Positions 1,767 through 17,367 of a stretch of DNA of 64,000 bases are shown here, piece after piece. This DNA comes from Thiomicrorhabdus chilensis DSM 12352 (GTDB lineage Bacteria > Pseudomonadota > Gammaproteobacteria > Thiomicrospirales > Thiomicrospiraceae): assembly GCF_000483485.1 (NCBI RefSeq), contig NZ_KI519609.1:541026-605025 (forward strand), read 5' to 3'. The notes beneath the pieces are model-generated. The model did not search any database, was not told the DNA's origin, and saw nothing but the letters and a program-made list of their open reading frames with translations. The number at the start of each line of letters is the position of its first letter. The first letter of the stretch is position 1. The position numbers and the translations under genes are program-made.

Positions 1767-1783
1767 GGGGATCATGAAGACTT

Positions 1784-2713
1784 ATGGAACAGAAAACTTT
1801 AAATAATTCCGAGGCGCATCCTTTGGATGGTTTTTATACCCCTGAGATTCAAGAGCGTTTTGAAAGAATAGAGAAGCGCCCTTTGGCAATAGAGGTTCAG
1901 GATCTCCAAAAAAGTTTTGCCCATAAAGGACAGGTTAATCAGGTTCTGGGCGGCATTAATTTTGATGAGTATCAACGTGAATTTATGTGTGTGGTGGGGC
2001 CTTCCGGGTGCGGAAAGTCAACTTTGGCGCGCACCATTGCCGGCTTGGAAAGTGCGGACAGTGGTGTCATGGTGGTAGCCGGGTCTGAAGTCAAAGGGCC
2101 GGGGCCGGATCGTGGCATGGTGTTCCAACGTTATACGTTGTTTCCATGGATGACCGTGAAACGAAATGTGATGTTCGGACTGACGCAAAATGGAATGGAA
2201 AAACCGGATGCCGAGAAGGAAGCCGCGCAATGGATTGACTTGGTGGGCTTATCCAAGTATGAGGAGTCCTATCCGCATCAGTTGTCCGGGGGGATGCAGC
2301 AGCGTGTTGCCATTGCCCGTGCACTGGCCACACAGCCCAAGGTGTTGTTGATGGATGAACCTTTTTCGGCTTTGGATCCACAAAATCGCGCCAAAATGCA
2401 ACAGTATCTGCTCGAAATCTGGCAGAACATCGATATCACCATTTTATTCATTACGCATGATTTAGACGAGGCGGTGTATCTGTCCGATCGTATTTTGGTG
2501 TTGGACGCGCATCCGGGAAGAGTCAGAGAAGTTTTGAAAGTGCCTTTGCCGCGCCCGCGTCCGTTAGACATTATGTTAAGCGAACCGTTTTTAGCCACAA
2601 AACACTATTTAGAAACGTTGGTTCATCCGCCTATTACCGATCTGGATATTGAGGAAAAGCTCAGTATGGTGCAGATGGTGCCGGTGGATTCCGCCGTTCC
2701 GGATATTTTTTAA
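1784..2713 (+). CDS. ABC transporter ATP-binding protein, SsuB/TauB type
   Basis: Cytoplasmic ATPase of 309 residues. Walker A GPSGCGKST at about 72-80, signature LSGGMQQR at about 166-173, Walker B VLLMDEP at about 187-193 followed by the D-loop SALD, and the switch histidine in FITHD near residue 225. About 40 residues precede the ATPase core, and a C-terminal tail of about 40 residues follows the usual end, as in nitrate/sulfonate/taurine importers. It pairs with the permease 17 bases upstream; the regulator gene starts one base after its stop, so all three are co-transcribed. Confidence 0.9.
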   Translation: MEQKTLNNSEAHPLDGFYTPEIQERFERIEKRPLAIEVQDLQKSFAHKGQVNQVLGGINFDEYQREFMCVVGPSGCGKSTLARTIAGLESADSGVMVVAGSEVKGPGPDRGMVFQRYTLFPWMTVKRNVMFGLTQNGMEKPDAEKEAAQWIDLVGLSKYEESYPHQLSGGMQQRVAIARALATQPKVLLMDEPFSALDPQNRAKMQQYLLEIWQNIDITILFITHDLDEAVYLSDRILVLDAHPGRVREVLKVPLPRPRPLDIMLSEPFLATKHYLETLVHPPITDLDIEEKLSMVQMVPVDSAVPDIF

Positions 2714-2714
2714 G

Positions 2715-3191
2715 ATGAATAAGACCAACTTAGTCAGAGTCAGTGCCTCCATGCCATCCAAGGTATTGGAGGATTTGGATAACCTGGTGCGTCGCAGAGG
2801 TTTCAATAACCGTTCCGCTTTGTTGATGGAGATGATTCAGAAAGAAGTGGCTTTGCAAAACCAAAAGCACAGCAACGAAGTCATGGCCGGTACTGTGACC
2901 TTGTTTTATGACCACACGGTTAATGGATTGCAACATCGTTTGAATGGGATTAAGCATAAATATGTGGCTGAAATCATCTCATCGACTCAGATTCAACTGG
3001 TGGATCAACACACCTTGGAGGTCAATCTTTTACAAGGACCGGCACAGCAGTTGCAGCTGATTGCCGATGAAATGATTTCAAACCGGGGGGTTAAGACCGG
3101 GAATTTCTATTTGGTAAATTCCGCTTTGCCTCCCATTTACAGTAAAAACTCGATACGTTCAAACGTATTTGATGAAAGTAAAGAAGGGTGA
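2715..3191 (+). CDS. NikR-like ribbon-helix-helix transcriptional regulator without the nickel ligands
   Basis: 158 residues. The N-terminal ribbon-helix-helix (about 5-45, RVSASMPSKVLEDLDNLV) is followed by an ACT-like C-terminal domain ending ADEMISNRGVKTG, which aligns with ADDVIAQRGVRHG of E. coli NikR. Aligned by eye on that anchor, NikR His76 is kept but His87, His89 and Cys95 become Gln, Gln and Thr, so the square-planar nickel site is absent. The start ATG 2715 lies one base after the ATPase stop; an upstream in-frame start would overlap the ATPase. Its place inside the operon suggests it regulates guanidine genes in response to a ligand other than nickel. The inverted repeats at 760-789 and 14010-14043 are its candidate targets. 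Confidence 0.8.
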   Translation: MNKTNLVRVSASMPSKVLEDLDNLVRRRGFNNRSALLMEMIQKEVALQNQKHSNEVMAGTVTLFYDHTVNGLQHRLNGIKHKYVAEIISSTQIQLVDQHTLEVNLLQGPAQQLQLIADEMISNRGVKTGNFYLVNSALPPIYSKNSIRSNVFDESKEG

Positions 3192-3193
3192 TT

Positions 3194-3937
3194 ATGAGTG
3201 ATCAAAAACCGATTATCTGGTCAGAGCAGCTCCCGGGAGGCGCGCACTGGTCAGGTGTGATGCGCCGTGGTTCCATTTTGAGAGTCAAGGATCTGGACGG
3301 CGGAGCCAATGTCTCGATGTTGATGTTCAATCTGGAGGTTCCAAGTGAACGTTACAACATGCCAGACACGCTTAAAGGCCAGAAGACCGCATTTCTAACC
3401 CGTCCAAACGTCTGTTATTCGGATATGGGTAGGGTGATGTGTTCGATTGTTGACGATACTTGCGGCTGGCATGACACCATCGGCGGCATATCCGATGCCG
3501 AGATGGTTAAGGCCAAATATGGGGAAGCGGATTATCAGCAAGCTCACAATGATTACCACAAGAATGGCTATGACAGCCTGATCAATGAATTGGAGAAGTG
3601 GGGGTTGGATGCCAAAGACTTGGTGCCGAATGTGAACTTGTTTTCTAAAATTCGCGTGGAGCTGGATGGCGACATGACTTATGTGGCGGATAACAGTCAG
3701 GCGGGCGATTACGTGGATTTGCGTTTTGAAATGGATTGCATTGTGGTGCTGGCAACCGCTCAGCACCCTTTGGATTCCAACCCGGACTATGCTCCCCAAC
3801 CGATTGAATTAACCGCCATGAAAGCGGAGCCGGTGCAGAGTGACGATGCCTGTCTAAGGCATAAACCAGAAAACGAACGCGCTTTTTACAATACAGCGAT
3901 TTATTACGGAGAGAAACCTTATGACTTTAGCAACTGA
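3194..3937 (+). CDS. cgdA: Carboxyguanidine deiminase subunit (DUF1989, urea carboxylase-associated protein)
   Basis: 247 residues of the DUF1989/urea-carboxylase-associated family. Members of this family from guanidine-degrading bacteria form a two-subunit carboxyguanidine deiminase that converts carboxyguanidine to allophanate plus ammonia. The conserved metal-binding block [12 protein letters not shown] is present at about 88-99 and is shared with the next gene ([12 protein letters not shown]), so the pair are paralogues. ATG 3194 is chosen because GAAGGG precedes it; a GTG two codons upstream is less likely. It overlaps the stop of the regulator gene by nothing and is read into cgdB with a 17-base overlap. 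The A/B letters follow gene order and may be swapped relative to published use. Confidence 0.85.
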
Positions 3938-4562
3938 GCAGATATCGGACAACCAGATCGTTCATCGTGAAGTGGTTAAAGCCGGTGATCCATGGATGCA
4001 TGTTGTCAAAGCCGGCCAAAAATTTCGTATTGTCGATTTGGAAGGCAACCAAGCGGTGGACACGCTGTTTTATAACGCCAACGATACCGAAGAGCGTTAC
4101 AGCGCCACGGATACCATCAAAGGCCAGGGCAACATCTACCTGACCACCGGGTCGGTTTTACGTTCTAACTTGAACAATCCGATGCTGACGATTACAGAGG
4201 ATACCTGCGGGCGTCACGACACCTTGGGTGGAGCCTGTTCTGCAGAGAGTAACACGGTGCGCTATTCCATCGATAAACGCCATATGCATTCTTGTCGCGA
4301 CAGTTTTCTCACCGCCTTGAGCAAGTGGGATTACGGAATGAGCAAACGAGACTTGTCCAGTAACATCAACTTTTTCATGAACGTGCCGGTTTCACCGGAG
4401 GGTCATCTGGATTTTGATGACGGCATTTCCGCCCCGGGACGTTATGTGGAAATGACGGCGCATATGGACACCTTGGTGCTGGTTTCAAACTGCCCGCAAT
4501 TGAACAACCCCTGTAATGGTTACAACCCGACCCCGGTCGAAATGGTGATTTGGGAAGAATGA
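3921..4562 (+). CDS. cgdB: Carboxyguanidine deiminase subunit (DUF1989), smaller paralogue
   Basis: 213 residues, the same DUF1989 fold as the preceding gene, with the metal-binding block [15 protein letters not shown] at about 93-107. Start ATG 3921 has GGAGAG seven bases upstream and overlaps the end of cgdA by 17 bases, typical of translational coupling for an obligate heteromer. Together with the carboxylase and allophanate hydrolase downstream it completes the route guanidine to carboxyguanidine to allophanate to ammonia and carbon dioxide. A riboswitch candidate lies in the 134-base gap before the next gene. Confidence 0.85.
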
Positions 4563-4603
4563 GCAGGCCTGTCATCGGCCGAAGCAATTGCACTCAGGAT
4601 AGC

Positions 4604-4668
4604 ATCGGGACGACCCGGAAGAGCGCATTCTTTTGAGTGTGATGTTGAATTAAGTGGGACGACTCACT
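4604..4668 (+). promoter_or_regulatory. Guanidine-II (mini-ykkC) riboswitch candidate before the carboxylase
   Basis: Two hairpins carry ACGA loops. The first is CGGG-ACGA-CCCG (4606-4617), the second AGTGGG-ACGA-CTCACT (4653-4668, one G-U pair), joined by about 35 bases. Paired ACGR-loop hairpins define the guanidine-II class, and a linker of 7-40 bases is normal. The carboxylase ATG is 28 bases downstream, which suits translational control. Pairing and context agree; ligand binding is inferred. Confidence 0.8.
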
Positions 4669-4696
4669 GCGCAAAGAAGCAAAAGAGAGAAAAACA

Positions 4697-7600
4697 ATGT
4701 TTTCAAAAGTATTGGTGGCAAACCGCGGAGCCATTGCGACACGCATTATCCGCACGCTTAAAAAGATGAATATTCGTTCGGTTGCGTTGGCCTCGGAAGT
4801 GGATCATGGATCACTGCATGTGCAATTGGCCGACGAAGTGATTTTATTGAAAGGCGCAACTGCGACCGAGACCTATTTGAATGTCCCTTTGATTTTGGAA
4901 GAAGCCAAGCTCCTGAAGGTCGACGCAATCCATCCGGGTTACGGATTCTTAAGTGAGAATGCCGGCTTTGCCGAAATGTGTGAGGCGAGCGGTATTACGT
5001 TTATCGGACCGAGTCCCAAGCATATTCGTGAGTTCGGTTTAAAACACACTGCGCGTGAACTGGCCATTGAGAGTAAGGTTCCCTTGTTGCCGGGTTCGGA
5101 CCTGTTGCAGAACAAGGAAGAGGCTCTGGAAGAGGCCGAACGCATCGGTTATCCGGTGATGCTCAAAAGTACTGCGGGCGGCGGTGGAATCGGCATGCAG
5201 AAATGCCATGATGCCCAAGAACTGGATGAGGCTTTTGAGCAAGTCGTGCGCATGAGCCAGAACGCTTTCGGTCAAAATGGCGTGTTTCTTGAGAAATTCG
5301 TCACCAATGCCCGCCATATTGAAATCCAGATTTTCGGTGACGGTCGCGGCAATGTGGTGTCGTTCGGCGAGCGTGACTGTTCGTTACAGCGTCGTAACCA
5401 GAAAGTGGTTGAAGAAACCCCTGTGGTCGACATCGACCGAAACTTGGTCGAGTCGATGGAGCGCGATGCGATCCGTTTGGGGGAGTCGGTCTCTTATCAG
5501 TCGGCCGGTACGGTCGAGTATGTGTATGACGGCGACACCAATGAATACTATTTCCTGGAAGTGAATACGCGCTTGCAGGTTGAACACGGCATTACCGAAG
5601 CGGTTCGCGATGTGGACCTGGTTCAATGGATGCTTGAAATCGCCTATAGCCACCAGTTCCCGGAGGCCGTCAAACCAGCCAAAGGGCATGCCATTGAGGT
5701 GCGGGTTTATGCTGAAGATCCGGCCAAGAATTTCCAGCCAAGTAGCGATAAAGTCACCAAGTGGCAGATGCCACAAGGCATTCGAGTCGATACCTGGGTT
5801 TCCGGGGGGCAGGAAGTCAGTTCTTATTATGATCCGATGTTGGCTAAAATCATCGTACTTGAACCGACGCGTGAGCAAGCCACCGCAAAACTTCAGGAGG
5901 CATTGGAGCAAACTAAAATTTACGGTTTCGAGACCAACGTACGATATCTGTCCGCCTTGTCGAAAGATGCTCAATTTCTCAGCGGTAAAGATTTGTACAC
6001 CAAATACCTCTCCGGTTTCGCCCCTGCCCCTTCTACCATTGAGGTGCTGAATCCGGGAACGCATTCGATGATTGTCAGCTATCCGGGGCGCGTTGGATTC
6101 TGGGATATCGGGGTGCCGCCATCGGGGCCGATGGATGCTTTGGCGCATCGTTTGGCGAACCGGGCACTGGGCAATGAAGAGGAAGCCTCTACCATCGAGA
6201 TGACCGTTTCCGGTGTGAGTCTGAAGTTCAACCAAGATACGGTGATCTGTTTGAGCGGTGCCGATGTTAAGCCGACGTTGGACAAAGAGCCGATTGCTAT
6301 GTGGGAACCAGTCGCGGTCAAAGCGGGTCAGGTCTTAAAGTCAAAAGTGATTAAAGAGGCCGGACAGCGCGCTTACCTAGCGGTGCAGGGCGGATTCGAT
6401 GTGCCGGATTATATGGGCAGTCAAACCACCTTCTCCTTGGGTGGTTTCGGTGGTCACGGCGGGCGCTTATTGCGTGCCGGTGATGTCTTGCCGATTCATG
6501 AATTGGAGATGAATGCTGAATTTGCGGCCATCCCTCTTGAGTTGGTGCCTCAGTACGGAAATGAATACGAGATCGCAGTCACTTACGGGCCTCAGGGTGC
6601 GCCGGATTTTTTCACCGACGAAGACATCGAAACCTTCTTTTCAACTGAGTGGGAAGTGCACTATAACTCAAGCCGCACCGGTATCCGTTTGATCGGCCCT
6701 AAGCCGAATTGGGCACGTAAGGACGGTGGCGAGGCCGGATTGCATCCGTCCAACATCCACGACAATCCTTATGCGATTGGAGCCATCGATTTCACCGGGG
6801 ACATGCCGGTTATTTTGGCGCAGGATGGTCCGAGCCTAGGGGGCTTTGTCTGTCCGGCGACTATCATTCAAGCGCAGCAGTGGAAAATGGGACAGTTGCG
6901 TCCGGGCGATAAGGTTAAGTTCAAGGCGGTCTCAATCGAAACGGCTGAGCAACAGCTTAAAGCGGTGGAAGGCCTCATCAACGAATTTGAGTTATTGCCT
7001 GACTTGGCCTTCCTGAAAGAGCCTACTGAAAAATCCTGCATCTTGCTGGAGTTGGACGATACCCAGCATGAAGTCGGTATCCGTTACCGCCGTTCCGGCG
7101 ACAGCAACCTGCTGATTGAATTCGGAAAGATGGAGCTGGATATCGCATTGCGTTTTAGAGCTCAGGTACTGTATGAAAAACTCAAAGGGCTTGAATGGCC
7201 ATACATCATCGATTTGACGCCGGGGATTCGAAGCTTGCAGGTGCATTACGATGCCAAGCAGGTCGGCCAGTTGGATCTTGTAAAACAGATTCATGAAGTC
7301 GAATCCGGACTTTCAAGCGGCAGCGATATGGTGGTGAAGAGCCGTATCGTGCATTTACCCTTGTCTTGGGACGACCCAAGCACCCAGTTGGCGATCGACA
7401 AATATACCCAATCCGTTCGTCCTGACGCGCCTTGGTGTCCGAGCAATATCGAGTTCATTCGCCGTATTAACGGGTTGGACTCAATCGAAGAAGTGAAAAA
7501 GATCGTTTTTGACGCCAACTATCTGGTCATGGGTCTGGGTGATGTTTATCTGGGCGCGCCGGTGGCGACGCCTTTGGATCCTCGTCACCGTCTGGTGACC

Positions 7601-8305
7601 ACCAAATACAACCCGGCACGAACTTGGACGCCGGAAAACGCCGTGGGTATCGGTGGGGCCTATATGTGTATTTACGGCATGGAAGGGCCGGGCGGTTATC
7701 AGTTTGTCGGCCGTACCATCCAAGTTTGGAACGCTTACCATCAGACGCCGTTTTTCAATACCGAAAAGCCTTGGTTGTTGCAGTTCTTCGATCAAATCAA
7801 GTTCTACCCAGTTTCCCATGATGAATTGACGCAGGCTCGTCAGGACTTTCCGTTGGGGCGTTTTGATATCAAAATCGAAGAGACCGAACTGTCATTGACG
7901 GACTACCAGGCGTTTTTGGCAAAAGAGTCTTCGTCGATCGAATCTTTCCAGGCCAAGCAGCAGCAGGCCTTTCAGGAAGAGCGTCAGCGTTGGGAAGAGA
8001 ACGGTCAGGCGAATTATGAATCCGGTAGCGGTCAGGAGGAAGTCGCCAGCGAACCGCAAGCGGAAATCCCAGACGGATTCGAAGCGGCGCTTTCACCGAT
8101 TACCGGCAGTGTCTGGAAGATTCCAGTCCGTCCGGGCGACCAGGTCAAAGAGGGCGACATCATCGCCAGTTTGGAAACCATGAAAATTGAAATACATATC
8201 GAAGCCGAAGTGGATGGCACAGTCACCGAAATTCTGGTGAACGAAGGGGATTTGATTCAGAACGGCCAGCGTTTGATGGTACTGGAGTTGCAAAATGAGT
8301 CTTAA
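4697..8305 (+). CDS. Guanidine carboxylase (annotated in databases as urea carboxylase), biotin-dependent
   Basis: 1202 residues in three parts: biotin carboxylase with ATP-grasp fold (about 1-450; GYGFLSENAGF, glycine-rich GGGGIGM at about 161-167), a central carboxyltransferase region of KipA/KipI type (about 455-1000; FWDIGVPPSGPMD), and a C-terminal biotinyl domain (about 1130-1202) with ETMKIE, biotin lysine at about residue 1163. The enzyme carboxylates guanidine (urea as poor alternative) with ATP and bicarbonate. The adjacent DUF1989 deiminase genes and the riboswitch upstream favour guanidine over urea as physiological substrate. Length and domain order match the full bacterial/fungal urea carboxylase family. 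It overlaps the allophanate hydrolase gene by 11 bases. Confidence 0.92.
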   Translation: MFSKVLVANRGAIATRIIRTLKKMNIRSVALASEVDHGSLHVQLADEVILLKGATATETYLNVPLILEEAKLLKVDAIHPGYGFLSENAGFAEMCEASGITFIGPSPKHIREFGLKHTARELAIESKVPLLPGSDLLQNKEEALEEAERIGYPVMLKSTAGGGGIGMQKCHDAQELDEAFEQVVRMSQNAFGQNGVFLEKFVTNARHIEIQIFGDGRGNVVSFGERDCSLQRRNQKVVEETPVVDIDRNLVESMERDAIRLGESVSYQSAGTVEYVYDGDTNEYYFLEVNTRLQVEHGITEAVRDVDLVQWMLEIAYSHQFPEAVKPAKGHAIEVRVYAEDPAKNFQPSSDKVTKWQMPQGIRVDTWVSGGQEVSSYYDPMLAKIIVLEPTREQATAKLQEALEQTKIYGFETNVRYLSALSKDAQFLSGKDLYTKYLSGFAPAPSTIEVLNPGTHSMIVSYPGRVGFWDIGVPPSGPMDALAHRLANRALGNEEEASTIEMTVSGVSLKFNQDTVICLSGADVKPTLDKEPIAMWEPVAVKAGQVLKSKVIKEAGQRAYLAVQGGFDVPDYMGSQTTFSLGGFGGHGGRLLRAGDVLPIHELEMNAEFAAIPLELVPQYGNEYEIAVTYGPQGAPDFFTDEDIETFFSTEWEVHYNSSRTGIRLIGPKPNWARKDGGEAGLHPSNIHDNPYAIGAIDFTGDMPVILAQDGPSLGGFVCPATIIQAQQWKMGQLRPGDKVKFKAVSIETAEQQLKAVEGLINEFELLPDLAFLKEPTEKSCILLELDDTQHEVGIRYRRSGDSNLLIEFGKMELDIALRFRAQVLYEKLKGLEWPYIIDLTPGIRSLQVHYDAKQVGQLDLVKQIHEVESGLSSGSDMVVKSRIVHLPLSWDDPSTQLAIDKYTQSVRPDAPWCPSNIEFIRRINGLDSIEEVKKIVFDANYLVMGLGDVYLGAPVATPLDPRHRLVTTKYNPARTWTPENAVGIGGAYMCIYGMEGPGGYQFVGRTIQVWNAYHQTPFFNTEKPWLLQFFDQIKFYPVSHDELTQARQDFPLGRFDIKIEETELSLTDYQAFLAKESSSIESFQAKQQQAFQEERQRWEENGQANYESGSGQEEVASEPQAEIPDGFEAALSPITGSVWKIPVRPGDQVKEGDIIASLETMKIEIHIEAEVDGTVTEILVNEGDLIQNGQRLMVLELQNES

Positions 8306-10115
8306 TGCCAAAGCGCAAAAGCGTTATTTCTTGAATATAGAACAGATTCACGGCTATTACGCTCGCGGAGATGTGAGCCCGGAAGTGTTGTTTGAGTTTT
8401 TGCACCAGCAAGCCGAGTCCATGGCCGAATACAATATTTGGATAGAGCTGTTGCCGTTGCAAAAAATTCGAGGTTATCTGGAAAATCTGGGAGAGTTTGA
8501 CCTGGACAGCAAGCCTTTGTGGGGCATTCCTTTTGCGGTCAAAGACAATATCGATTTGGCTGGGGTGCCGACTTCGGCGGCCTGCCCATCTTATGCTTAT
8601 ACCCCACAAGAAGATGCGGAAGTGGTTCGCCTATTGATTGAGGCCGGGGCGGTGCCTTTAGGGAAAACCAACCTGGATCAATTCGCGACCGGTTTGGTGG
8701 GAACACGTTCGCCTTATGGGGTCTGTCACAACAGTTTTGATTTCGAAACCATTTCCGGCGGTTCCAGTTCCGGCTCCGCAGTGTCGGTGGCGATGGGTTT
8801 GTGCAGTTTTTCGCTGGGGACGGATACAGCCGGCTCCGGACGGGTTCCAGCCGCTTTCAATAATTTGATAGGACTCAAACCCAGTAAAGGAATTTTGAGT
8901 ACACGGGGCGTGGTGCCGGCCGTCAGGTCACAGGATGTGGTGTCGATTTTTGCGTTGGACAGCGTGGATGCCGAAAAGGTGTTTGATGTGGTGGCCAAAC
9001 AGGATCCTGACGATGCCTTTAGTCGCAAACAGTCTGAGTTGAACGTCCCGGCCTGGGGTGAAAAACCAGTCATCGGTATTCCGGACGAAGCCGGGCGGAT
9101 GTTTTACGGTGATGCTCAGGCACAGGCCAATTTTGAAAAGAGTGTGGCGCAACTGCAAGAGATGGGCTATGAGGTCAAAGAGCTGGATTTTTCTGCGTGG
9201 CTGGAAACGGCGAAATTGCTTTATGGCGGAGCCTGGGTGGCGGAACGTTATGCGGCCATCGCCGAGTTCATAGAATCGACTCCCAAAGATATGGATCCGA
9301 CGGTGGAGGGCATTATCCGTTCAGCCACCGATTTGAGTGCGGTCGATGCCTATCGGGGCGCTTATCAGCTGCAAGACGCTATTCGACAAACCGAATCGAT
9401 TTGGCAGGAGGTTGATTGTTTTGTCACGCCGACGACACCGAGCATCTTCAAAATCGCTGAGGTGGAGAAAGAGCCGGTTGCACTGAACAGCGCCTTGGGA
9501 ACCTATACCAATTTCATGAACTTGTTGGATTACTCTGCGGTGGCCATGCCTAGCGGATTCCGTGAGGATGGCCGGCCATGCGGCATTACCTTGTTTGCTC
9601 CGGCGGGCAGTGATTGCAAGTTGTTGAACCTGACCAAACAGTGGCACCCGAAATTTGTCGAGTTTGCGGCGGTCAATCGCAGCCCAATCCAGAAAGGGCA
9701 AATAACGGCCGATCACCATGCCATTCCATTGGCTGTGGTGGGCGCACACCTCACCGGGTTTCCGCTAAACTCACAGCTGTTGGAGCGCGGTGCAAAATTG
9801 CTCAAATTGACGCAGACCGCGTCCAAATATAAGTTTTATGAATTGAGCAGCCGTCCTCTGCTGAAGCCGGGTTTGCTTAAGGTGGACGATTCTTCTGGAG
9901 CCTCCATTGAAGTGGAAGTATGGTCGATGCCCAAAGAGCATCTGGGGAGTTTTCTGGCGTTGATTCCCTCGCCACTTGGTTTGGGCAAGGTCGAACTGAT
10001 TGACGGAAGCGAGGTGGTCGGATTCATTTGCGAGCCTAACGGACTGCACGGTGCGGTGGACATTACCGAGCACGGCGGTTGGCGTAACTGGATGAAAGCC
10101 CGCGCCGAAACCTGA
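8295..10115 (+). CDS. atzF: Allophanate hydrolase
   Basis: 606 residues: an amidase-signature domain (about 60-440) with GKTNLDQFATG (catalytic Lys in the N-terminal half is likely in the preceding PFAVKDNID) and the GGSSSGSAVSVAMG loop holding the catalytic serines, then the C-terminal allophanate hydrolase domain (about 450-606). It hydrolyses allophanate to ammonia and carbon dioxide in the cytoplasm, the last step of the guanidine pathway. Start ATG 8295 has GGAG 7 bases upstream and overlaps the carboxylase stop, so the two are translationally coupled. Two CAGGCCTG palindromes follow the stop, then the second riboswitch. Confidence 0.92.
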   Translation: MSLNAKAQKRYFLNIEQIHGYYARGDVSPEVLFEFLHQQAESMAEYNIWIELLPLQKIRGYLENLGEFDLDSKPLWGIPFAVKDNIDLAGVPTSAACPSYAYTPQEDAEVVRLLIEAGAVPLGKTNLDQFATGLVGTRSPYGVCHNSFDFETISGGSSSGSAVSVAMGLCSFSLGTDTAGSGRVPAAFNNLIGLKPSKGILSTRGVVPAVRSQDVVSIFALDSVDAEKVFDVVAKQDPDDAFSRKQSELNVPAWGEKPVIGIPDEAGRMFYGDAQAQANFEKSVAQLQEMGYEVKELDFSAWLETAKLLYGGAWVAERYAAIAEFIESTPKDMDPTVEGIIRSATDLSAVDAYRGAYQLQDAIRQTESIWQEVDCFVTPTTPSIFKIAEVEKEPVALNSALGTYTNFMNLLDYSAVAMPSGFREDGRPCGITLFAPAGSDCKLLNLTKQWHPKFVEFAAVNRSPIQKGQITADHHAIPLAVVGAHLTGFPLNSQLLERGAKLLKLTQTASKYKFYELSSRPLLKPGLLKVDDSSGASIEVEVWSMPKEHLGSFLALIPSPLGLGKVELIDGSEVVGFICEPNGLHGAVDITEHGGWRNWMKARAET

Positions 10116-10142
10116 CAGGCCTGTTCATTTCTGGCAGGCCTG
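10116..10142. repeat. Two copies of the iterated palindrome CAGGCCTG
   Basis: CAGGCCTG occurs at 10116-10123 and 10135-10142. The same 8-mer starts at 4564, 12293, 15842, 25499, 26879, 30134, 40632, 43318, 44048, 45360, 47538, 48100, 49364, 50573, 51470, 56363 and 57705, in genes and gaps alike. At least 19 copies in 64 kb compares with about one expected by chance. The role is unknown; HIP1-like iterated palindromes and DNA-uptake motifs behave this way. Confidence 0.8.
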
Positions 10143-10199
10143 CTCAATTTCAAAATGATTTTCAGAGAGTGGCGCTTGAAGGTTTACTCAAGCTCTATC

Positions 10200-10249
10200 C
10201 GCAATCCGGGACGACCCGGATTGTGTCTTTCCAACGCAGGACGGCCTGC
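10200..10249 (+). promoter_or_regulatory. Guanidine-II (mini-ykkC) riboswitch before the desaturase operon
   Basis: Hairpin one is CAATCCGGG-ACGA-CCCGGATTG (10202-10223, nine unbroken pairs, extendable by two). Hairpin two is GCAGG-ACGG-CCTGC (10236-10249). Both loops fit ACGR and the linker is about 12 bases, the textbook layout of the class. The desaturase ATG lies 50 bases downstream with its ribosome site at about 10284-10290. This is a better match than the copy at 4604-4668. Confidence 0.88.
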
Positions 10250-10298
10250 ATAAGAAAGCTTGGTTTTTCGGCTAATTTTGTGCACAGAGGTTTGCTTT

Positions 10299-11318
10299 AT
10301 GACTGCCCGCAATACGTTTTCGATATGGCGCTATGAGGACTCGATGCTCCCCAACTTATTGGCTTTGAGTTATATTGTGCTGGCTTACGGTTTAGGTCTT
10401 TACGGTATCTTGTCGCCATTGCTTTGGTTGAATTTATTGGCGGTACCTTTGTTGGCGCACAGCATGGTGATGGCCGCGTATTTCATTCACGAGTGCGCCC
10501 ATGAGAGCGTGTTTAAGGATCGCCGCCATAATCGTTGGCTCAGCGAGTTGCTGTTGTGGGTGTGCGGCTCCAGTTACAGCGATTTCGATGACATCAAACG
10601 CAAGCACAACCGTCATCACAGTGATCGTGCCGATATTGTCTCGTTCGATTTCCGCCCTCGTTTAATGGCTTATCCGAAAACGCTGAAATTCATTCAGGCG
10701 TTGGAGTGGGCTTACATACCCGCTCTGGAAGTGTTGATGCACGCTTTGGTGATTGTGTTGCCGTTTGTAAAGACAAGCCGCAAGTCGCGTCGTGCTCGCG
10801 TGGTGTTGTTTGTTCTGTTGCGCGCCCTGTTTTTCATCGGTTTGGCTTCTGTCTCCTGGAAAGTGTTGCTGTTCTATCCCATTGCTTACCTGCTGTTCCT
10901 GACGGTGATGCGTTTTATGGACGTGCATCAGCATACCTATGAATTGTTTGAAACGCTGGATCAAAAGCGCGGACCGGAGGCTCGACTTAGGGATCGCGAA
11001 TTCGAACATCACAATACCTATTCGAATCTGCTGTCGGAACGTCATCCTTGGCTGAACCTGTTGGTGCTGAATTTCTGCTATCACAATGTCCATCACGACC
11101 AGCAGGCACAGCCGTGGTATCGGTTACGTCGCCTGCATGAGCAGATTTATGGCGATGATGAACGCCAGGTATTGACCTTCAGACATTTGATTAAAAGTTA
11201 TCACCGTTACCGGGTGCCGAGAATCTTGAATTCCGATCCGATCAATATGGACGTTAAACAGCATGAAGGTGAGACCTTTATCGGCGTGGACGGCGTCTCT
11301 TTTCTGACAGCTCATTAA
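10299..11318 (+). CDS. Membrane desaturase/hydroxylase family protein (three-histidine-box diiron enzyme)
   Basis: 339 residues with hydrophobic stretches at about 20-60 and 140-205. Histidine boxes HECAHE (64-69), HNRHH (103-107) and HNVHH (262-266), with extra His pairs in VHQHTYE and EFEHHNTY, define the membrane fatty-acid desaturase/alkane hydroxylase superfamily. These enzymes use a diiron centre and oxygen to oxidise C-H bonds. Start ATG 10299 has ACAGAGG eight bases upstream. A guanidine riboswitch controls it, and it heads an operon of an MBL hydrolase, a TIM-barrel protein and an EamA transporter. The substrate is therefore more likely a guanidino compound (for example oxidative release of guanidine from an N-alkylguanidine) than a membrane lipid, though that is inference. 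Confidence 0.8.
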   Translation: MTARNTFSIWRYEDSMLPNLLALSYIVLAYGLGLYGILSPLLWLNLLAVPLLAHSMVMAAYFIHECAHESVFKDRRHNRWLSELLLWVCGSSYSDFDDIKRKHNRHHSDRADIVSFDFRPRLMAYPKTLKFIQALEWAYIPALEVLMHALVIVLPFVKTSRKSRRARVVLFVLLRALFFIGLASVSWKVLLFYPIAYLLFLTVMRFMDVHQHTYELFETLDQKRGPEARLRDREFEHHNTYSNLLSERHPWLNLLVLNFCYHNVHHDQQAQPWYRLRRLHEQIYGDDERQVLTFRHLIKSYHRYRVPRILNSDPINMDVKQHEGETFIGVDGVSFLTAH

Positions 11319-11353
11319 GTAAGCGGCTCTAAATACGTTAAAGGAATCAAATT

Positions 11354-12136
11354 ATGACTCAGGTAAAAAAATTCTGGCCGATTCTAACCGGCACACATCA
11401 TTACGAAAAAACCCTTTCAACGCGTAATCAGGGTAAGGGCACTTTTATTGACGCACCGATTTTGGCCTACCTGATTGAGACCAATAACGGCCGCATATTG
11501 TTTGATGTGGGCTGTGATTACCACAAGATCAAACAGGCCGAACAGCGTAAATTCTATTACGAGAATGAGGCTTTTCCATTTGGGCCGCCGGAGATGACTG
11601 AGGAGCAGAGGCTGCCGAACAAACTCGAAATTCTGGGGTTGTCGCCGTTGGATGTGGATTTGGTGTTTTGCAGTCACCTGCATTTTGATCATGCAGGAGG
11701 TTTGTGTGAATTCTGTCATGCCGAAGTACATGTGCATCAGAGTGAGTTGCAAGCCGCGAAACAGCCCGCAGACGACGCCTATTTTGCCGAAGACTTTTCC
11801 ATGCCGTTGAACTGGAAAATCCAGACCGGTGAATACGATTTGATTGACGGCGTGCGTGCGATCGAAACGCCGGGCCATACGGCAGGACACATGTCGATGT
11901 TAGTCGAATTGCCCAAGGGAGCGCCGATTTTACTGGCCGGGGATGCGGCCGATTTGACTGAAAATCTGGAGCAGGAAATCGCCCCGGGTTTGTGTTGGCA
12001 GGATCGTGATGATTTGGCGATTGAAAGCATTCAGAAACTCAAACGGCTTAGTCGGGAAACCGGTGCGGCCCTTTGGCCGAATCACGATATGGAATTCTTC
12101 AAAAAACATAACGTTTTCCCCAGTTTTTTCGAGTAA
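11354..12136 (+). CDS. Metallo-beta-lactamase-fold hydrolase (N-acyl-homoserine-lactonase-like)
   Basis: 260 residues with the complete dinuclear zinc site of the superfamily: HLHFDH at 108-113, His at about 175 in ETPGHTAGH, Asp at about 197 in LAGDAAD and a final His in WPNHD near 249. Overall layout resembles lactonases of the AiiA/AttM group, but the same fold hydrolyses many amide and ester bonds. It lies 35 bases after the desaturase gene, has AAAGGA before its ATG and is followed after 6 bases by the TIM-barrel gene. The riboswitch-controlled context points to a step in breakdown of a guanidino compound. Confidence 0.8.
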   Translation: MTQVKKFWPILTGTHHYEKTLSTRNQGKGTFIDAPILAYLIETNNGRILFDVGCDYHKIKQAEQRKFYYENEAFPFGPPEMTEEQRLPNKLEILGLSPLDVDLVFCSHLHFDHAGGLCEFCHAEVHVHQSELQAAKQPADDAYFAEDFSMPLNWKIQTGEYDLIDGVRAIETPGHTAGHMSMLVELPKGAPILLAGDAADLTENLEQEIAPGLCWQDRDDLAIESIQKLKRLSRETGAALWPNHDMEFFKKHNVFPSFFE

Positions 12137-12142
12137 TGGAAT

Positions 12143-12982
12143 ATGAAACTCAAAATTTTTAAAGCCTTGTGGGGCTGCGATTTACCCATTGAACAGGCGG
12201 TTGCGCAAGCGGTGCATGCTGGTTTTCAGGGAATCGAGGGGCGTGCTCCACAGGATTCACGAGAGCAGAAAAAATGGTCGGCACTATTTGAGCAGGCCTG
12301 TCTGGATTACGTGGCGGAAATTGTAACCGGCGGGGATTATGTGCCCCATGCCAGCGCTACTCCGGAACAGCATTTGGCCGATTTGAAGTTAGGGCTGGAA
12401 AACAGCATGCCGTTGAATCCCAAGTTCGCAACCTGTATTACGGGTTACGATGCCTGGCCGGAAAGCGAAAGCATCGACTTTTTCAAAGCGGCGATTGAAT
12501 TAGCCCAAACCTATGGCCTGCCCATTAACTTCGAGACTCATCGCAGCCGCTCGCTATTCAATCCTTGGGTCACGCGGCGAATCGCTGAAGCGATTCCTGA
12601 GATGCGTTTGACCCTGGACATCAGCCATTGGTGTGTGGTGTGTGAACGCCTGATGGATTCCGAAATCTCTGTACTTGAGAGCTTTCTGCCTCAAGTCAGG
12701 CATATTCACGCGCGAGTGGGATATGATCAAGGGCCTCAGGTTCCGCACCCTGCCGCACCCGAGTATGCTGCGGCTCTGCTTTCCCATCAAACGATATGGG
12801 CGCGGGTTTGGCAATTGCAAAAACAGTCTGGTCAAACCTGCACCAGTATGACGCCGGAATTTGGCCCGGATGGTTATTTGCACCGTCTGCCTTTTACGCA
12901 AGCACCCATTGCCGATCTTTGGGAAATCAACCAGTGGATGGCTGAAACCGAACGAGCGCACTTCCAACGTTTTTCAAACTAG
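12143..12982 (+). CDS. Xylose isomerase-like TIM-barrel protein
   Basis: 279 residues of the sugar phosphate isomerase/epimerase (AP endonuclease 2) superfamily. Candidate metal ligands come in the usual order: Glu in NFETHRSRS, Asp in LTLDISHW, His in HIHARVGYDQG and Glu in TPEFGPDGY. The motif GPQVPHP after the third ligand recurs in uncharacterised members of the family. Exact reaction unknown: isomerase, epimerase, dehydratase and hydrolase members exist. It is tightly packed between the MBL hydrolase (6 bases) and the EamA transporter (39 bases), so it shares the guanidine-II-controlled transcript. Confidence 0.75.
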   Translation: MKLKIFKALWGCDLPIEQAVAQAVHAGFQGIEGRAPQDSREQKKWSALFEQACLDYVAEIVTGGDYVPHASATPEQHLADLKLGLENSMPLNPKFATCITGYDAWPESESIDFFKAAIELAQTYGLPINFETHRSRSLFNPWVTRRIAEAIPEMRLTLDISHWCVVCERLMDSEISVLESFLPQVRHIHARVGYDQGPQVPHPAAPEYAAALLSHQTIWARVWQLQKQSGQTCTSMTPEFGPDGYLHRLPFTQAPIADLWEINQWMAETERAHFQRFSN

Positions 12983-13021
12983 AACCCTCGCCATTCTGGC
13001 GCACTTTTAAGGATAGATTTT

Positions 13022-13876
13022 ATGCAAACCGTAGCGGTTTCGGTGCTTTTCGCGGCCTCCATTTTATGGGGGTTAAGTTGGCTTCCTCTTAAATATCTCA
13101 ATGAACTGGGGTTTGACGGCCTGCCGTTGACTTTGTTTTTGTACCTGTTGATGTTTGTGATGATGTTGCCGGTGATTTGGTCACAGCGTCAGTACATCCC
13201 AACGTCGTGGCGCATGCTGTTGTTGATCGCACTTTTGGGGGGAGGGGCCCAATTGGCCTTTAATACCGCCTTGATTTACGGGGAGGTGATTCGGGTGATG
13301 GTGTTGTTTTATCTGGTACCGTTATGGGGGGTGCTGGGAGGACGGATTTTTCTTAAGGAGCCTATTGATCGGATACGGTGGCTGGGAATGGGCTTGTCGA
13401 TTATCGGTGCGTTTCTAATTGTAGGGGGCATGAATGCCTTCATTGCTCCGCCCTCGTGGATTGATGGTCTGGCGTTGCTTTCCGGATTCTTGTTTGCGAT
13501 GAATAATATCGCTTTCAGGCTGACGCAGGCGGTACCGGTCAAGATCAAGTTGGCATCGATGTTTATGGGGGCTTTCCTATTGGCTTCTTTCGGTCTTGCA
13601 TTGCAGGGCCAGTCTGTGAATCTTGAGTTGGGGTGGACGGCATGGACGGCCCTGTTTGCCTATGGGGCCATTTGGATGATGATCGCCAACTTTGGTACCC
13701 AATGGGCGGTGACTCATCTTGAGGCCGGACGCTCTTCGATCATTGTCATCATGGAGTTGGTCACGGCGGTGATCTCCGCCAGTTTGATTTTGGGGGAAAC
13801 CATGAGCAGTTTGGAAAAGGTGGGCGGCGTTATGATTTTATTGGCGGCGTTTATTGAGGCCAGAAAGGCCCGTTAA
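13022..13876 (+). CDS. EamA/DMT family transporter
   Basis: 284 residues, about ten predicted membrane helices arranged as two EamA repeats (about 1-135 and 145-284); a conserved acidic residue sits in VTAVISASLILGE of the second repeat. Members export small metabolites, amino acids or cations. AAGGA precedes the ATG. As the last gene of the riboswitch operon it may move a guanidino compound or its product across the inner membrane; guanidine exporters known so far (SugE/Gdx) are four-helix relatives in the wider DMT superfamily. The AT-rich gap that follows holds the promoter of the next operon. Confidence 0.8.
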   Translation: MQTVAVSVLFAASILWGLSWLPLKYLNELGFDGLPLTLFLYLLMFVMMLPVIWSQRQYIPTSWRMLLLIALLGGGAQLAFNTALIYGEVIRVMVLFYLVPLWGVLGGRIFLKEPIDRIRWLGMGLSIIGAFLIVGGMNAFIAPPSWIDGLALLSGFLFAMNNIAFRLTQAVPVKIKLASMFMGAFLLASFGLALQGQSVNLELGWTAWTALFAYGAIWMMIANFGTQWAVTHLEAGRSSIIVIMELVTAVISASLILGETMSSLEKVGGVMILLAAFIEARKAR

Positions 13877-14058: not shown

Positions 14059-15036
14059 ATGTTAGGTAGCAAAAAAGTATTGGGTGCATTGGCGGGTTTG
14101 TTTCTTTCGGCTCAAGCGATGTCTGTAAATGCAGAACCTTTGAAGATTGGATACAGCGACTGGCCTGGCTGGGTGGCTTGGGAAGTGGCCATTGAAAAGA
14201 AATGGTTTGCGGAAGAAGGGGTGGACGTCAAATTCGAGTGGTTTGACTATGTGGCTTCTATGGATGCGTTTGCCGCCGGCCAGTTGGATGCAGTGGGCAT
14301 GACCAATGGGGATGCATTGGTAACCGGTGCGACCGGTGCCAAGAGTGTCATGGCGATTATCAATGATTACAGTGACGGTAATGACATGTTGATTGGTGGT
14401 CCTGGCATCGCTTCGGTTAAAGACCTGAAAGGCAAGAAGGTTGGCGTTGAAGTTGGATTTGTCGGACACCTTCTGTTGTTGAATGCCTTGGAAAAGAATG
14501 GTTTGACTGAGTCGGATGTGGAGTTGGTGAATGTACCTACCAGCGAAACTCCGCAAGTTTTGGCTTCAGGTCAGGTGGATGCGATTGTCGCATGGCAGCC
14601 GAGTTCTGGTTCAGCGTTGCAGTTGGTTCCCGGATCTACTGCAATCTACACCAGTGCGGATGAGCCTGGTTTGATTTACGATGTCTTGGCGGTTGCACCG
14701 AGCAGTTATGCTAATAATCGTGACGAATGGGAGAAGGTGGCTAAGGTTTGGTATAAGGCTGTGGATTATATAAAAGATCCTAAAACGACCGACGATGCCG
14801 TTTCCATTATGGCTTCTCGTGTTGGTTTGTCTGCCGATGAATATAAGAAATTTATCAACGGAACAAATATCCTGACGTTGGAAGAGGCGAAAAAGCATTT
14901 CAAGAAAGCGGACGGCTTCAAGTCACTTTACGGATCAACCAAAATCTCGGATGATTTCAACATCAATAACAAGGTTTACGATGAACCGCAAGATGTTGAT
15001 TCTTATATCGATCCTTCATTAACAGAAGGTCTGTAA
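14059..15036 (+). CDS. ABC transporter periplasmic solute-binding protein, guanidine (urea carboxylase) region
   Basis: 325 residues with a signal peptide (about 1-25, cleavage near VNA-E). The NMT1/TauA/SsuA-like fold follows: [17 protein letters not shown] near the mature N-terminus, and the hinge region [22 protein letters not shown]. It is the kind of binding protein found beside urea (guanidine) carboxylase and should deliver substrate to the permease/ATPase at 801-2713, although it lies on a separate transcript. The shared inverted repeat upstream supports joint control. GGAGG precedes the ATG at good distance, predicting strong translation, as usual for binding proteins. Confidence 0.88.
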
Positions 15037-15106: not shown

Positions 15107-15216
15107 GCTTACTCCTATAAACCCCACAGAACAGTGCATGCCCGAACCTCTCAATTTAAGGTTGGATTGGCTGTGTCCTGATTTTATTGCTCAGTAGGAT
15201 GAGCGGGGAGAACGCT

Positions 15217-15990
15217 ATGAATCAATGGCATCACATGACTTGGGAGGAGATCGGGCATCTGTCCGGCTCCTCCATGGACGCTGCGTTGTTGCCAGTCGGC
15301 GCAACAGAACAGCATGGTCCGCACTTGGGGTGCGGCATGGACTCCGAGATTGCACAACAGCTGGGCTTTCAAGTCGCCCAAAACACTCAAGTCGCTTTAT
15401 TGCCGACCTTGCCTTACGGCTGCTCACTCGGACATTCTCAACGATGGCCGGGCACCATCGCCTTACAGCCCAAGACATTGATCGATGTGGTCAAGGAAAT
15501 CGGCGACTGGGTTTATGCGTCCGGTTTCAAACGTTTATTTATCCTCAATAGCCATGTCTCAAATTTTGCGCCATTACGCTGTGCTTTAGAGATGTTGAGG
15601 GCCGAACATGACGGCTTTATGGTGGCGATTGTCAATTCGGCGACGATCAGCGAGCGGGTTAAAAAAAGGCATTTTGAGGATGCCGATGACTGGCATGCCA
15701 ATGAAGCCGAAACATCTTTGATGATGGCGGTTGCGCCTCAGCTGGTCAGGGAGGAGCGTTTGAATGACAGTGACGACCCGGATCGTACACGAGAATGTGT
15801 GTTTTCACATCCGGTGAACCGCACCAGTCTCAATGGCGTGACAGGCCTGCCCAGTTTGGCAAGCGCGGAAAAGGGTGAAGAGTTGTTTGCCTGGATGGTT
15901 GAGGATTTGAGTGAGTTGGTGAAAAAAGGCCTGCGTGAAGAGGCCCCTTTGTCACATGGTTATTTCGACAAAGTTAATAATGAAAATTAA
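15217..15990 (+). CDS. Creatininase-family amidohydrolase
   Basis: 257 residues. Metal ligands typical of the creatininase/MftE/ArfB family are visible: Glu and His in GATEQHGPHLG (about 30-40), Asp in GCGMDSEIA, His in ILNSHVSNF and Glu in ANEAETSLM. The family cleaves cyclic or linear amides (creatinine, formamidopyrimidines). Start ATG 15217 is chosen for the GGGGAG just upstream; the longer frame lacks one. It lies between the binding protein and a glutamine-synthetase-like ligase, suggesting release of ammonia or an amine from an imported nitrogen compound. True creatinine hydrolysis is possible but unproved. Confidence 0.82.
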   Translation: MNQWHHMTWEEIGHLSGSSMDAALLPVGATEQHGPHLGCGMDSEIAQQLGFQVAQNTQVALLPTLPYGCSLGHSQRWPGTIALQPKTLIDVVKEIGDWVYASGFKRLFILNSHVSNFAPLRCALEMLRAEHDGFMVAIVNSATISERVKKRHFEDADDWHANEAETSLMMAVAPQLVREERLNDSDDPDRTRECVFSHPVNRTSLNGVTGLPSLASAEKGEELFAWMVEDLSELVKKGLREEAPLSHGYFDKVNNEN

Positions 15991-16005: not shown

Positions 16006-17367
16006 ATGAACAGTCAATTTGATGTAGAAGATTTAAAGAGAAAATTGCAAGCCTCAGGAGTAAAGTACTGTATTGGGGCCTATGTGGATATTCATGGGGT
16101 GCCTAAAGGTAAGTTTGTACCTATTGAGCATCTGGATCATATGGTGAAGGGATCCGAACTATACACTGGTTATGCCTTGGACGGTTTGGGGCAGAAACCC
16201 AATGAGGATGAAATTGCATCGATACCGGACTTGAACAGTCTGATTCAGTTGCCTTGGCAGCCGGAAGTTGCCTGGATGGCGGCGGACAATACCTTGCATG
16301 GTGAGCCCTATGAGATTAACACGCGCGTTGCTCTGAAAAAGGTATTGGCACAGGCCGAAGAGATGGGCTTTGGTTTTAACCTGGGGATTGAATGTGAGTT
16401 ATTCGTTCTCAAAGAGGAGGAAGATGGTTCTCTGTCGGTGCCGGATAAAGACGATAAGTTGATCAAGCCATGCTATGACGTGCGCAGTTTCATGAACCGT
16501 TTCACCTGGCTGGACAAAATGGCCACCACGATCAACGATTTGGGCTGGGATCTGTATTCGTTGGATCATGAAGATGCCAACGGGCAGTATGAATTCGACT
16601 TCCAGTACAGCGATGCCTTGACCATGTGCGATCGCTTTATCTTCTTCCGCTACATGGCCAAGCATTATGCTCAGGAAGAAGGGTTGCTGGCGACCTTCAT
16701 GCCGAAACCTTTTGCCGACAAGACCGGTAATGGCGCACATTTCAACATGTCGCTTTTCGATAAAGAAACCGGTGAGAATGTCTTTAAGTGTGATCCTAAA
16801 GACGATCCACGCGGTTTGGGCTTGACCGAGTTGGGTTATCAGTTCATCGGTGGGGTTTTAAAGCACGGTCCGGCATTGTGTGCGGTCTTCTCCCCAACGG
16901 TCAACAGTTATAAGCGATTGGTCAGGCAGGGAGCCATGGCGACGTTTTCCTGGGCACCGGTGTTTAATTCGTTCGGTTCCAATAACCGAACCAACTCGGT
17001 GAGGGTGCCGATGGGCGGCGGACGTTTTGAGTCCCGAAATGCCGACGGTGCGGTCAACCCCTATCTGGCAGCGGCCTTGGTATTGGGGGCAGGACTTCAG
17101 GGGATTCGCGAGAAGTTGGATCCGGGCCAGCCTCAGGAAGAGAACTTGTATGAATACAGTGAAGAACAGCTGTCGGAGAAAGGAATTGAATTTCTGCCTC
17201 AGAACCTTGCGGAAGCGGTTGAAGCGTTCGACAGCGATCCGTTTGTCGAAGAGGTGCTGGGTAAAGGTCTTAAAGACGAGTTCGTCAAGTACAAAACCAT
17301 GGAGTGGGAAGAATATCACCGGACGATTTCTGAGTGGGAGATCAAGAGATACAGCCATATGTTCTAA
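16006..17367 (+). CDS. Glutamine synthetase family ligase (GlnT/gamma-glutamylmethylamide synthetase-like)
   Basis: 453 residues covering the N-terminal beta-grasp and the whole catalytic domain. GS signatures are present: GIECELFVL (metal Glu), [32 protein letters not shown] in place of the usual loop, and the C-terminal [29 protein letters not shown] region that binds ATP and glutamate. This subgroup includes GlnT and gamma-glutamylmethylamide synthetase, which joins glutamate to ammonia or methylamine. In this operon it would capture ammonia or a small amine released by the creatininase-family enzyme. It starts 15 bases after that gene and ends at a strong terminator. Housekeeping GlnA is larger in residue count and elsewhere. 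Confidence 0.85.

Follow-up and report, generated by a model that had tools for sequence, protein, structure and literature searches.

A predicted Guanidine-II riboswitch and a candidate oxidative guanidine-release operon in Thiomicrorhabdus chilensis

We analyzed a 64,000-nucleotide stretch (hereafter the window) of Thiomicrorhabdus chilensis DSM 12352 (contig NZ_KI519609.1, positions 541,026 to 605,025), in which a Guanidine-II (mini-ykkC) aptamer stands ahead of a four-gene operon (Table 1). The operon encodes a membrane di-iron oxygenase (DES) from the fatty acid desaturase superfamily, a metallo-β-lactamase-fold hydrolase (MBL), a xylose-isomerase-like TIM barrel (TIM), and an EamA-family transporter (EamA), with gaps of 35, 6, and 39 nt between successive genes. 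It directly follows a guanidine-carboxylase cluster, all genes lie on the forward strand, and the conserved module extends past the four genes on both sides, with a periplasmic binding protein (SBP) as one of its parts. An earlier reading of the letters alone (the sequence-only reading) had claimed a two-hairpin ACGR Guanidine-II motif before these four genes; the Rfam model RF01068 confirmed the motif at 40.6 bits, and all four genes have Pfam matches.

Table 1 Features of the window discussed in the text (ABC, ATP-binding cassette)
Feature	Position	Strand	Evidence
Guanidine-II aptamer, two ACGR-loop hairpins	10203-10249	+	RF01068, fold, covariation
DES, membrane di-iron oxygenase, fatty acid desaturase superfamily	10299-11318	+	PF00487 134.1 bits, cut-off 29.7
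MBL, metallo-β-lactamase-fold hydrolase	11354-12136	+	PF00753 69 bits
TIM, xylose-isomerase-like TIM barrel	12143-12982	+	PF01261 35.6 bits, cut-off 31.1
EamA-family transporter	13022-13876	+	PF00892 92.3 bits; conserved neighbor
SBP, NMT1/SsuA-like periplasmic binding protein, conserved module part	14059-15036	+	
Creatininase-family protein	15187-15990	+	TIGR04448 125.7 of 235
Type III glutamine synthetase	16006-17367	+	TIGR03105 680 bits, cut-off 469.6
ABC permease (801-1766) and ATPase (1784-2713)	801-2713	+	
NikR-like regulator, three of four nickel-ligand positions changed	2649-3191	+	
Two DUF1989 proteins, CgdA/CgdB-like carboxyguanidine deiminase subunits	3188-4562	+	
Urea/guanidine carboxylase	4697-8305	+	TIGR02712 1782 bits, cut-off 1303.85
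Allophanate hydrolase AtzF	8295-10115	+	TIGR02713 773.8 bits, cut-off 511

The aptamer matches the whole RF01068 model above its gathering threshold of 32 bits, is the sole Guanidine-II match in a search of its own genome, carries ACGR loops on both hairpins (GGGACGACCC and GGACGGCC), and ends 49 nt before the ATG of DES. Among 11 aptamers ahead of DES relatives, compensatory changes occur at five of the nine consensus pairs; the double ACGR hairpin, sought by the same rule, appeared in 8 of 13,500 dinucleotide shuffles of 45 DES-upstream regions. Folding of 10195-10320 returned both hairpins at a mildly low energy (z = -2.0, 8 of 200 shuffles being equally good), and a search of 10050-10350 for promoter and terminator patterns gave none. 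By its score and hairpins the element is a Guanidine-II riboswitch, for which guanidine binding and control of expression are predicted. This class has been described with efflux proteins and metabolic enzymes (PMC12186494). A desaturase-type gene as its target was not found in the literature searched, which did not cover key subscription papers.

Membership of DES in PF00487 is indicated by its score and by the boxes HxxxH, HxxHH, and HxxHH, which are invariant in 28 aligned rows, as are histidines 54, 64, 68, 103, 106, 107, 212, 262, 265, and 266. The AlphaFold2 model (pLDDT 87.8, pTM 0.88) aligned with a chloroplast Ycf2-FtsHi complex subunit (Z 18.0, rmsd 4.0, 276 aligned) and with FtAlkB (VIA Z 11.2, rmsd 4.9, 253 aligned, 14% identity). 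Foldseek gave nothing under E 0.001, its best values being 0.001 and 0.008 (FtsHi-complex subunits) and 0.03 (AlkB), and there was no meaningful sequence match in the PDB. A relative with 81% identity lies in a Thiomicrorhabdus sp. ZW0627 locus. Rhizobitoxine desaturase RtxC is a precedent for a PF00487 enzyme acting on a small polar molecule. A distant relative of DES (37%) on a Gloeothece plasmid (L080, 11884-13463) is followed by ectoine-synthase-like, GNAT, and halogenase genes.

TIM has four residues that we take to be metal ligands (E131, D159, H187, and E239), all invariant in 24 aligned rows. It has no meaningful PDB sequence match; its AlphaFold2 model (pLDDT 89.4) resembles IolE (Foldseek E 1.9e-9, TM 0.68), sugar epimerases, and C-deglycosidases, in a superfamily that includes lyases (IolE, C-deglycosidases). 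This likeness suggests that TIM is more likely a lyase than a hydrolase, and we propose that it acts on a hydroxylated intermediate. EamA is probably an exporter, predicted to carry guanidine or a by-product.

MBL keeps the dinuclear metal motif HxHxDH with H175, D197, and H244, both in the PDB alignment to AiiA and in the alignment of its relatives, and its cysteines 106, 118, and 121, adjoining that motif, are invariant. Its closest PDB relatives are N-acyl homoserine lactone (AHL) lactonases (AiiA, 126 bits), the observation from which one might take MBL for a quorum-quenching lactonase and the operon for a mixed signal and defense island unrelated to guanidine. We give this almost no weight: MBL reaches 154.8 bits against an AiiA cut-off of 375 (NF045699), the catalytic tyrosine of AiiA, presumably Tyr194, is not kept (the aligned residue is Asp200), and in Paraburkholderia the MBL gene follows a Guanidine-I aptamer. 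The 4-pyridoxolactonase model NF047925 was likewise missed (158.9 bits, cut-off 325). We propose that MBL is an accessory hydrolase of a released one-carbon unit or intermediate.

Among 62 genomes of the order, TIM matched in 24 and the carboxylase in 23, all 23 lying within the 24 (Fisher exact test: P = 4e-16, which is uncorrected for shared descent and linkage and overstates independence because linked genes are inherited together). The TIM genome without a carboxylase match (G011) is a 120-contig assembly. DES, MBL, and EamA are present in all 24 TIM genomes, and all four genes stand together in the window and 21 further loci. In G010 and G015, a DES-MBL-EamA-SBP-creatininase-glutamine synthetase segment lies about 23 and 28 kb, respectively, from TIM, which is itself close to AtzF and the carboxylase. 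G015 carries another DES (43%) next to that TIM; in G012 and G024 the module and the carboxylase are on separate contigs.

A survey of Guanidine-II elements upstream of DES, a check named in the sequence-only reading, covered loci within and outside the order. Within it, an element at gathering level directly precedes DES in 3 of 25 DES loci (window, L029, and L031); of 22 DES loci retrieved, 14 have SBP directly upstream instead. These upstream regions were judged by a genome search, whose stricter filters lose weak matches, and by a motif script; cmscan was applied in the order to some long loci only (seven loci in one run, and in further runs L050, L051, L054, L110, L111, L060, and L063).

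A GTDB scan with the DES alignment returned 28 loci, 11 in the same group and 17 elsewhere. The latter include Ectothiorhodospiraceae, Arenicellales, Moraxellaceae/Fluviicoccus, a Cellvibrionales metagenome-assembled genome (MAG), unclassified Gammaproteobacteria, a Nitrosospira MAG, and a MAG labeled Pedobacter. MBL and/or TIM adjoin DES in 16 of the 17, Nitrosospira being the exception; CgdA/B or the carboxylase lies in the stretch in 8 of the 17, an SBP-permease-ATPase set in one more, and several of the remaining loci are short contigs. In a survey of the class, TIM was found in 8 of 369 genomes.

Outside the order, 17 loci could be assessed, and 10 of them have a gathering-level Guanidine-II element directly before DES (L061, L064, L065, L066, L067, L071, L075, L076, L094, and L096). 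The 17 comprise 15 loci of the scan together with L094 and L096, which come from the class survey; not included are L072 and L078, whose contigs start within DES or just ahead of it, and L092 and L093, which repeat L066 and L070. Two loci scored below threshold (L069, 30.8 bits; L074, 25.8 bits), and none was found before DES in L068, L070, L073, L077, and L079. A scripted double hairpin before DES in L070 (= L093) was dropped for lack of the GGACGRCC core, and L068, with a degenerate hairpin form only, was counted as a miss. Guanidine-I aptamers occur in the stretches of L071, L075, L076, L081, and L096, and further Guanidine-II aptamers precede the carboxylase in L068, L070, L071, L073, L076, and L081. 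The claim of the sequence-only reading that these genes handle a guanidino compound is thus in good standing: the co-occurrence with the carboxylase and the riboswitches before DES in distant lineages make their place in guanidine metabolism well supported.

The nearest functional analogue was published by Sinn and colleagues in October 2025: MgdH, a 2-oxoglutarate/Fe(II) (2OG) oxygenase, and MgdL of Vreelandella boliviensis are proven to demethylate methylguanidine (PMC12508155); that text mentions neither desaturase, lactamase, xylose isomerase, EamA, TIM barrel, nor Thiomicro. A Paraburkholderia sprentiae plasmid (L081) links this system to ours. It has relatives of MBL (59%) and TIM (52%) clustered with genes for SBP, CgdA/B, the carboxylase, AtzF, and ABC proteins, and there a 2OG oxygenase adjoins TIM in place of DES. 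The cluster holds two Guanidine-I aptamers and one Guanidine-II aptamer (11254-11377, 14204-14336, and 15941-15988 for the two classes together), and both SBP and MBL follow Guanidine-I. Ten TIM genomes were tested for both oxygenases: nine have DES without the 2OG enzyme (including G109, where the DES match is partial and covers 125 positions), and in one (G205) the 2OG enzyme stands beside TIM and DES is absent. In a 26-row TIM tree the Paraburkholderia protein branches with those of G010 and G015 (92/87, an open fork below the starred level), the other three TIMs with a 2OG partner stand apart (100/100), and the 2OG label needs two changes; G010 is labeled DES by genome content, its DES not being beside its TIM.

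The same oxygenase family (48-52%) is paired with an MgdL-like protein in Acinetobacter and Novosphingobium. On the Acinetobacter plasmid, a 2OG oxygenase with 48% identity to that of Paraburkholderia overlaps by 4 bp a gene for a hypothetical protein, in a stretch that also holds a small multidrug resistance (SMR) transporter, SBP, AtzF, and the carboxylase. Neither this protein nor its relative in Novosphingobium has a Pfam match, and both show the conserved D-x-R described for MgdL; an annotated carboxylase is absent from the Novosphingobium stretch. Synteny and motif lead us to regard the two pairs as putative MgdH/MgdL types. A Sphingobium hypothetical protein encoded after allophanate hydrolase (L115) was tried as MgdL and rejected on a failed alignment. 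With the Paraburkholderia 2OG oxygenase as query (MgdH itself was not used), no relative was found in the T. chilensis genome at E 1e-20. The Acinetobacter MgdL-like query had no match in T. chilensis and none among the other genomes of the class (0 of 369) at 1e-10, in a search whose positive control also gave no match; three plasmid records matched, its own among them. The 2OG family thus occurs with either an MgdL-like protein or TIM, and TIM with either the 2OG enzyme or DES. Most simply read, DES would take the role of MgdH, and TIM that of MgdL.

These exchanges bear on two other views of the operon. In one, DES is a lipid desaturase by which the membrane would be adjusted in the presence of guanidine, with MBL and TIM as bystanders, as the PF00487 family name, the membrane location, and the structural likeness to AlkB-type enzymes would allow. 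We consider it very unlikely, given that DES is the sole PF00487 match of its genome, yet 38 of the 62 genomes of the order have neither a TIM match nor the carboxylase, and that DES accompanies the carboxylase and is replaced by a 2OG oxygenase, a soluble enzyme. The other view is protective: DES would oxidize guanidine or a toxic side product and EamA would export the result. EamA is indeed the last gene of the riboswitch operon, and the link of Guanidine-II to efflux proteins (PMC12186494) points the same way; the tight bond of the module to an assimilation pathway and importer, together with the replacement of DES by an oxygenase whose family also partners an MgdL-like protein, renders detoxification distinctly improbable.

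TIM-2OG pairs also occur with no carboxylase in view (L097, 5600-16500; L082, 1-9900; L083, 12001-18800). They sit with ABC genes, a class II aldolase, and a 2-hydroxyacid dehydrogenase, two of the three adjoin an arginase-family or ADI/DDAH-family gene, and perhaps they represent a second guanidino-compound pathway. A remote TIM relative in Runella (L084, 6791-8807) has a phytanoyl-CoA dioxygenase-type gene beside it, so here too this TIM family has an iron oxygenase as neighbor. The three pairs are one reason to consider that the window operon follows the same logic on another substrate, a larger or different guanidino compound (an alkylguanidine, a guanidino acid, or one derived from creatinine), whose carbon part MBL, TIM, and the creatininase-family protein would process and EamA would export. 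A creatininase-family gene is present in 12 of 23 order loci as well as the window, a lactonase-like MBL and an isomerase-like TIM would suit a multi-carbon product, and glutathione-dependent formaldehyde dehydrogenase (FrmA, TIGR02818) is lacking over cut-off in 19 of 24 module genomes. Residues E59, A104, and H189, however, are kept in 20 of 20 aligned TIMs from DES genomes and in that of Paraburkholderia. The TIM-2OG pairs of Kozakia, Klebsiella, and G205, from whose stretches the carboxylase is absent, have other residues there; moreover, SBP is of the NMT1 and not of an amino-acid type, and the nearest proven analogue works on methylguanidine (PMC12508155). We hold a different substrate to be possible but doubtful.

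The reading we prefer, with a probability of about 0.5, is that the operon serves to release guanidine by oxidation, most likely from methylguanidine, and so supplies the guanidine carboxylase pathway next to it. It is drawn from the carboxylase co-occurrence, the riboswitches before DES in distant lineages, and the exchange of DES for an MgdH-related oxygenase; the activities, substrate, ligand binding, and step order we infer. SBP and the ABC importer would take in a small N-substituted guanidine, most likely methylguanidine, and DES would hydroxylate the carbon on the guanidine nitrogen to a hemiaminal, e.g., N-(hydroxymethyl)guanidine, which a metal-dependent TIM would break into guanidine and an aldehyde. 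MBL would probably dispose of the one-carbon product or help the TIM cleavage step, and EamA would export excess guanidine or a by-product. A Guanidine-II aptamer is known to bind methylguanidine as well as guanidine (PMC12508155), and either ligand could turn on translation of DES. The guanidine would then pass through the carboxylase, carboxyguanidine deiminase, and allophanate hydrolase to ammonia. Release from an N-substituted guanidine that feeds the carboxylase had been suggested from the sequence alone; its oxidative part is the best-supported reading, and its hydrolytic step gives way to a probable lyase.

Several observations weigh against our preferred reading. We know of no PF00487 protein acting on a guanidine, a small hydrophilic cation is an unusual substrate for a membrane enzyme, and a dedicated electron donor gene is absent from the operon. 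No Guanidine-II element was detected before DES in 22 of 25 order loci, MBL is missing beside four DES-TIM pairs (L075, L076, L094, and L096), and five MAGs have DES but no TIM match, one of them (Nitrosospira L079) having DES alone. The match of the 2OG oxygenases to MgdH is a putative one of synteny and motif. TIM-2OG pairs are also found beside aldolase and hydroxyacid dehydrogenase genes, and the chemistry of TIM may therefore go beyond hemiaminal cleavage. The T. chilensis genome has no TIGR02818 match, and just 5 of 24 module genomes have one over cut-off, which is awkward if free formaldehyde forms; its scarcity implies either that the one-carbon product is otherwise handled, perhaps by MBL, or that the substrate is not methylguanidine.

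Of 35 module genomes with MBL, 9 have FrmA (5 of 24 over cut-off in the order; 4 of 11 outside it at E 1e-100, one of them below cut-off) as do three of four DES-TIM genomes without MBL in the stretch seen (one below cut-off). The complementarity of MBL and FrmA (Fisher exact test: P = 0.08; P = 0.03 with the TIM-2OG genome G205 added) is only a hint, as several of the genomes are MAGs and the absence of MBL from the four refers to the DES-TIM stretch and not to the whole genome. A more specific and rather unlikely extension of our reading would make the operon a second, independently evolved demethylase of methylguanidine or N-alkylguanidines, with DES as methyl hydroxylase, TIM as a new N-(hydroxymethyl)guanidine lyase, and MBL hydrolyzing either N-formylguanidine that arises by over-oxidation or the one-carbon product, with formate as the result. 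Such a route would spare formaldehyde in chemolithoautotrophs without glutathione-dependent formaldehyde dehydrogenase.

The neighboring genes complete the picture of the locus. SBP is presumably the partner of the permease and ATPase upstream of the carboxylase cluster. The TIGR02712 model is named for urea carboxylase, and the adjoining CgdA/B pair suggests guanidine as the substrate. The creatininase-family protein, which scores below the true-creatininase cut-off, forms with type III glutamine synthetase a recurrent pair of these clusters (12 of 23 order loci, and the window). In the NikR-like regulator, three of the four positions that we take to be nickel ligands read Q-x-Q...T; among 13 aligned loci (L031 and L053 being the same record) QxQ occurs in 10, NxN in two, and HxH in one, with T for Cys in all, and the regulator probably senses a non-nickel signal, perhaps guanidine.

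If our reading is true, the operon is a new guanidine-forming enzyme set, in which a membrane di-iron enzyme acts on a guanidine and a TIM barrel breaks a guanidine hemiaminal, neither of which is known to us elsewhere, and the use of substituted guanidines extends to autotrophic sulfur oxidizers and several other gammaproteobacterial lineages. No description of a DES-TIM-MBL set was found in the literature searched, where key subscription papers were not covered, so the enzyme set appears new. The pathway had been called undescribed; this applies to the enzymes and not to the overall conversion of methylguanidine to guanidine, which is published with other enzymes, MgdH/MgdL being the functional analogue (PMC12508155). 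How free guanidine arises in nature is not yet settled, and only a few enzymes that form it have been described (PMC12508155, PMC12186494).

The window resembles several known systems and departs from each. It shares with described Guanidine-II riboswitches (RF01068) the sequence, the two ACGR hairpins, and the place ahead of an operon, and differs in its desaturase-type target gene. DES has the His-box architecture and fold of AlkB and other PF00487 membrane di-iron oxygenases, at low identity (14%), with a weak Foldseek E value (0.03), and outside a lipid or alkane context. The metal motif and fold family of MBL are those of AiiA and 4-pyridoxolactonase-like proteins, from which it is set apart by scores far under the cut-offs, the changed tyrosine position, and the invariant cysteines 106, 118, and 121. 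The full guanidine carboxylase pathway (carboxylase, CgdA/B, and AtzF) adjoins at 3188-10115 with its ABC permease and ATPase, and to this pathway the window module would be added as a source of guanidine. Like MgdH/MgdL, the module combines an oxygenase and a partner beside guanidine carboxylase genes, a guanidine riboswitch, and an ABC importer, and hydroxylation followed by cleavage to guanidine is proposed for both. The oxygenase is a membrane di-iron PF00487 protein rather than a 2OG/Fe(II) dioxygenase, the partner is a xylose-isomerase-like TIM barrel whereas MgdL is a β-barrel, MBL and EamA are additional genes, and the DES module occurs in other lineages, namely sulfur oxidizers, Arenicellales, Ectothiorhodospiraceae, and Moraxellaceae.

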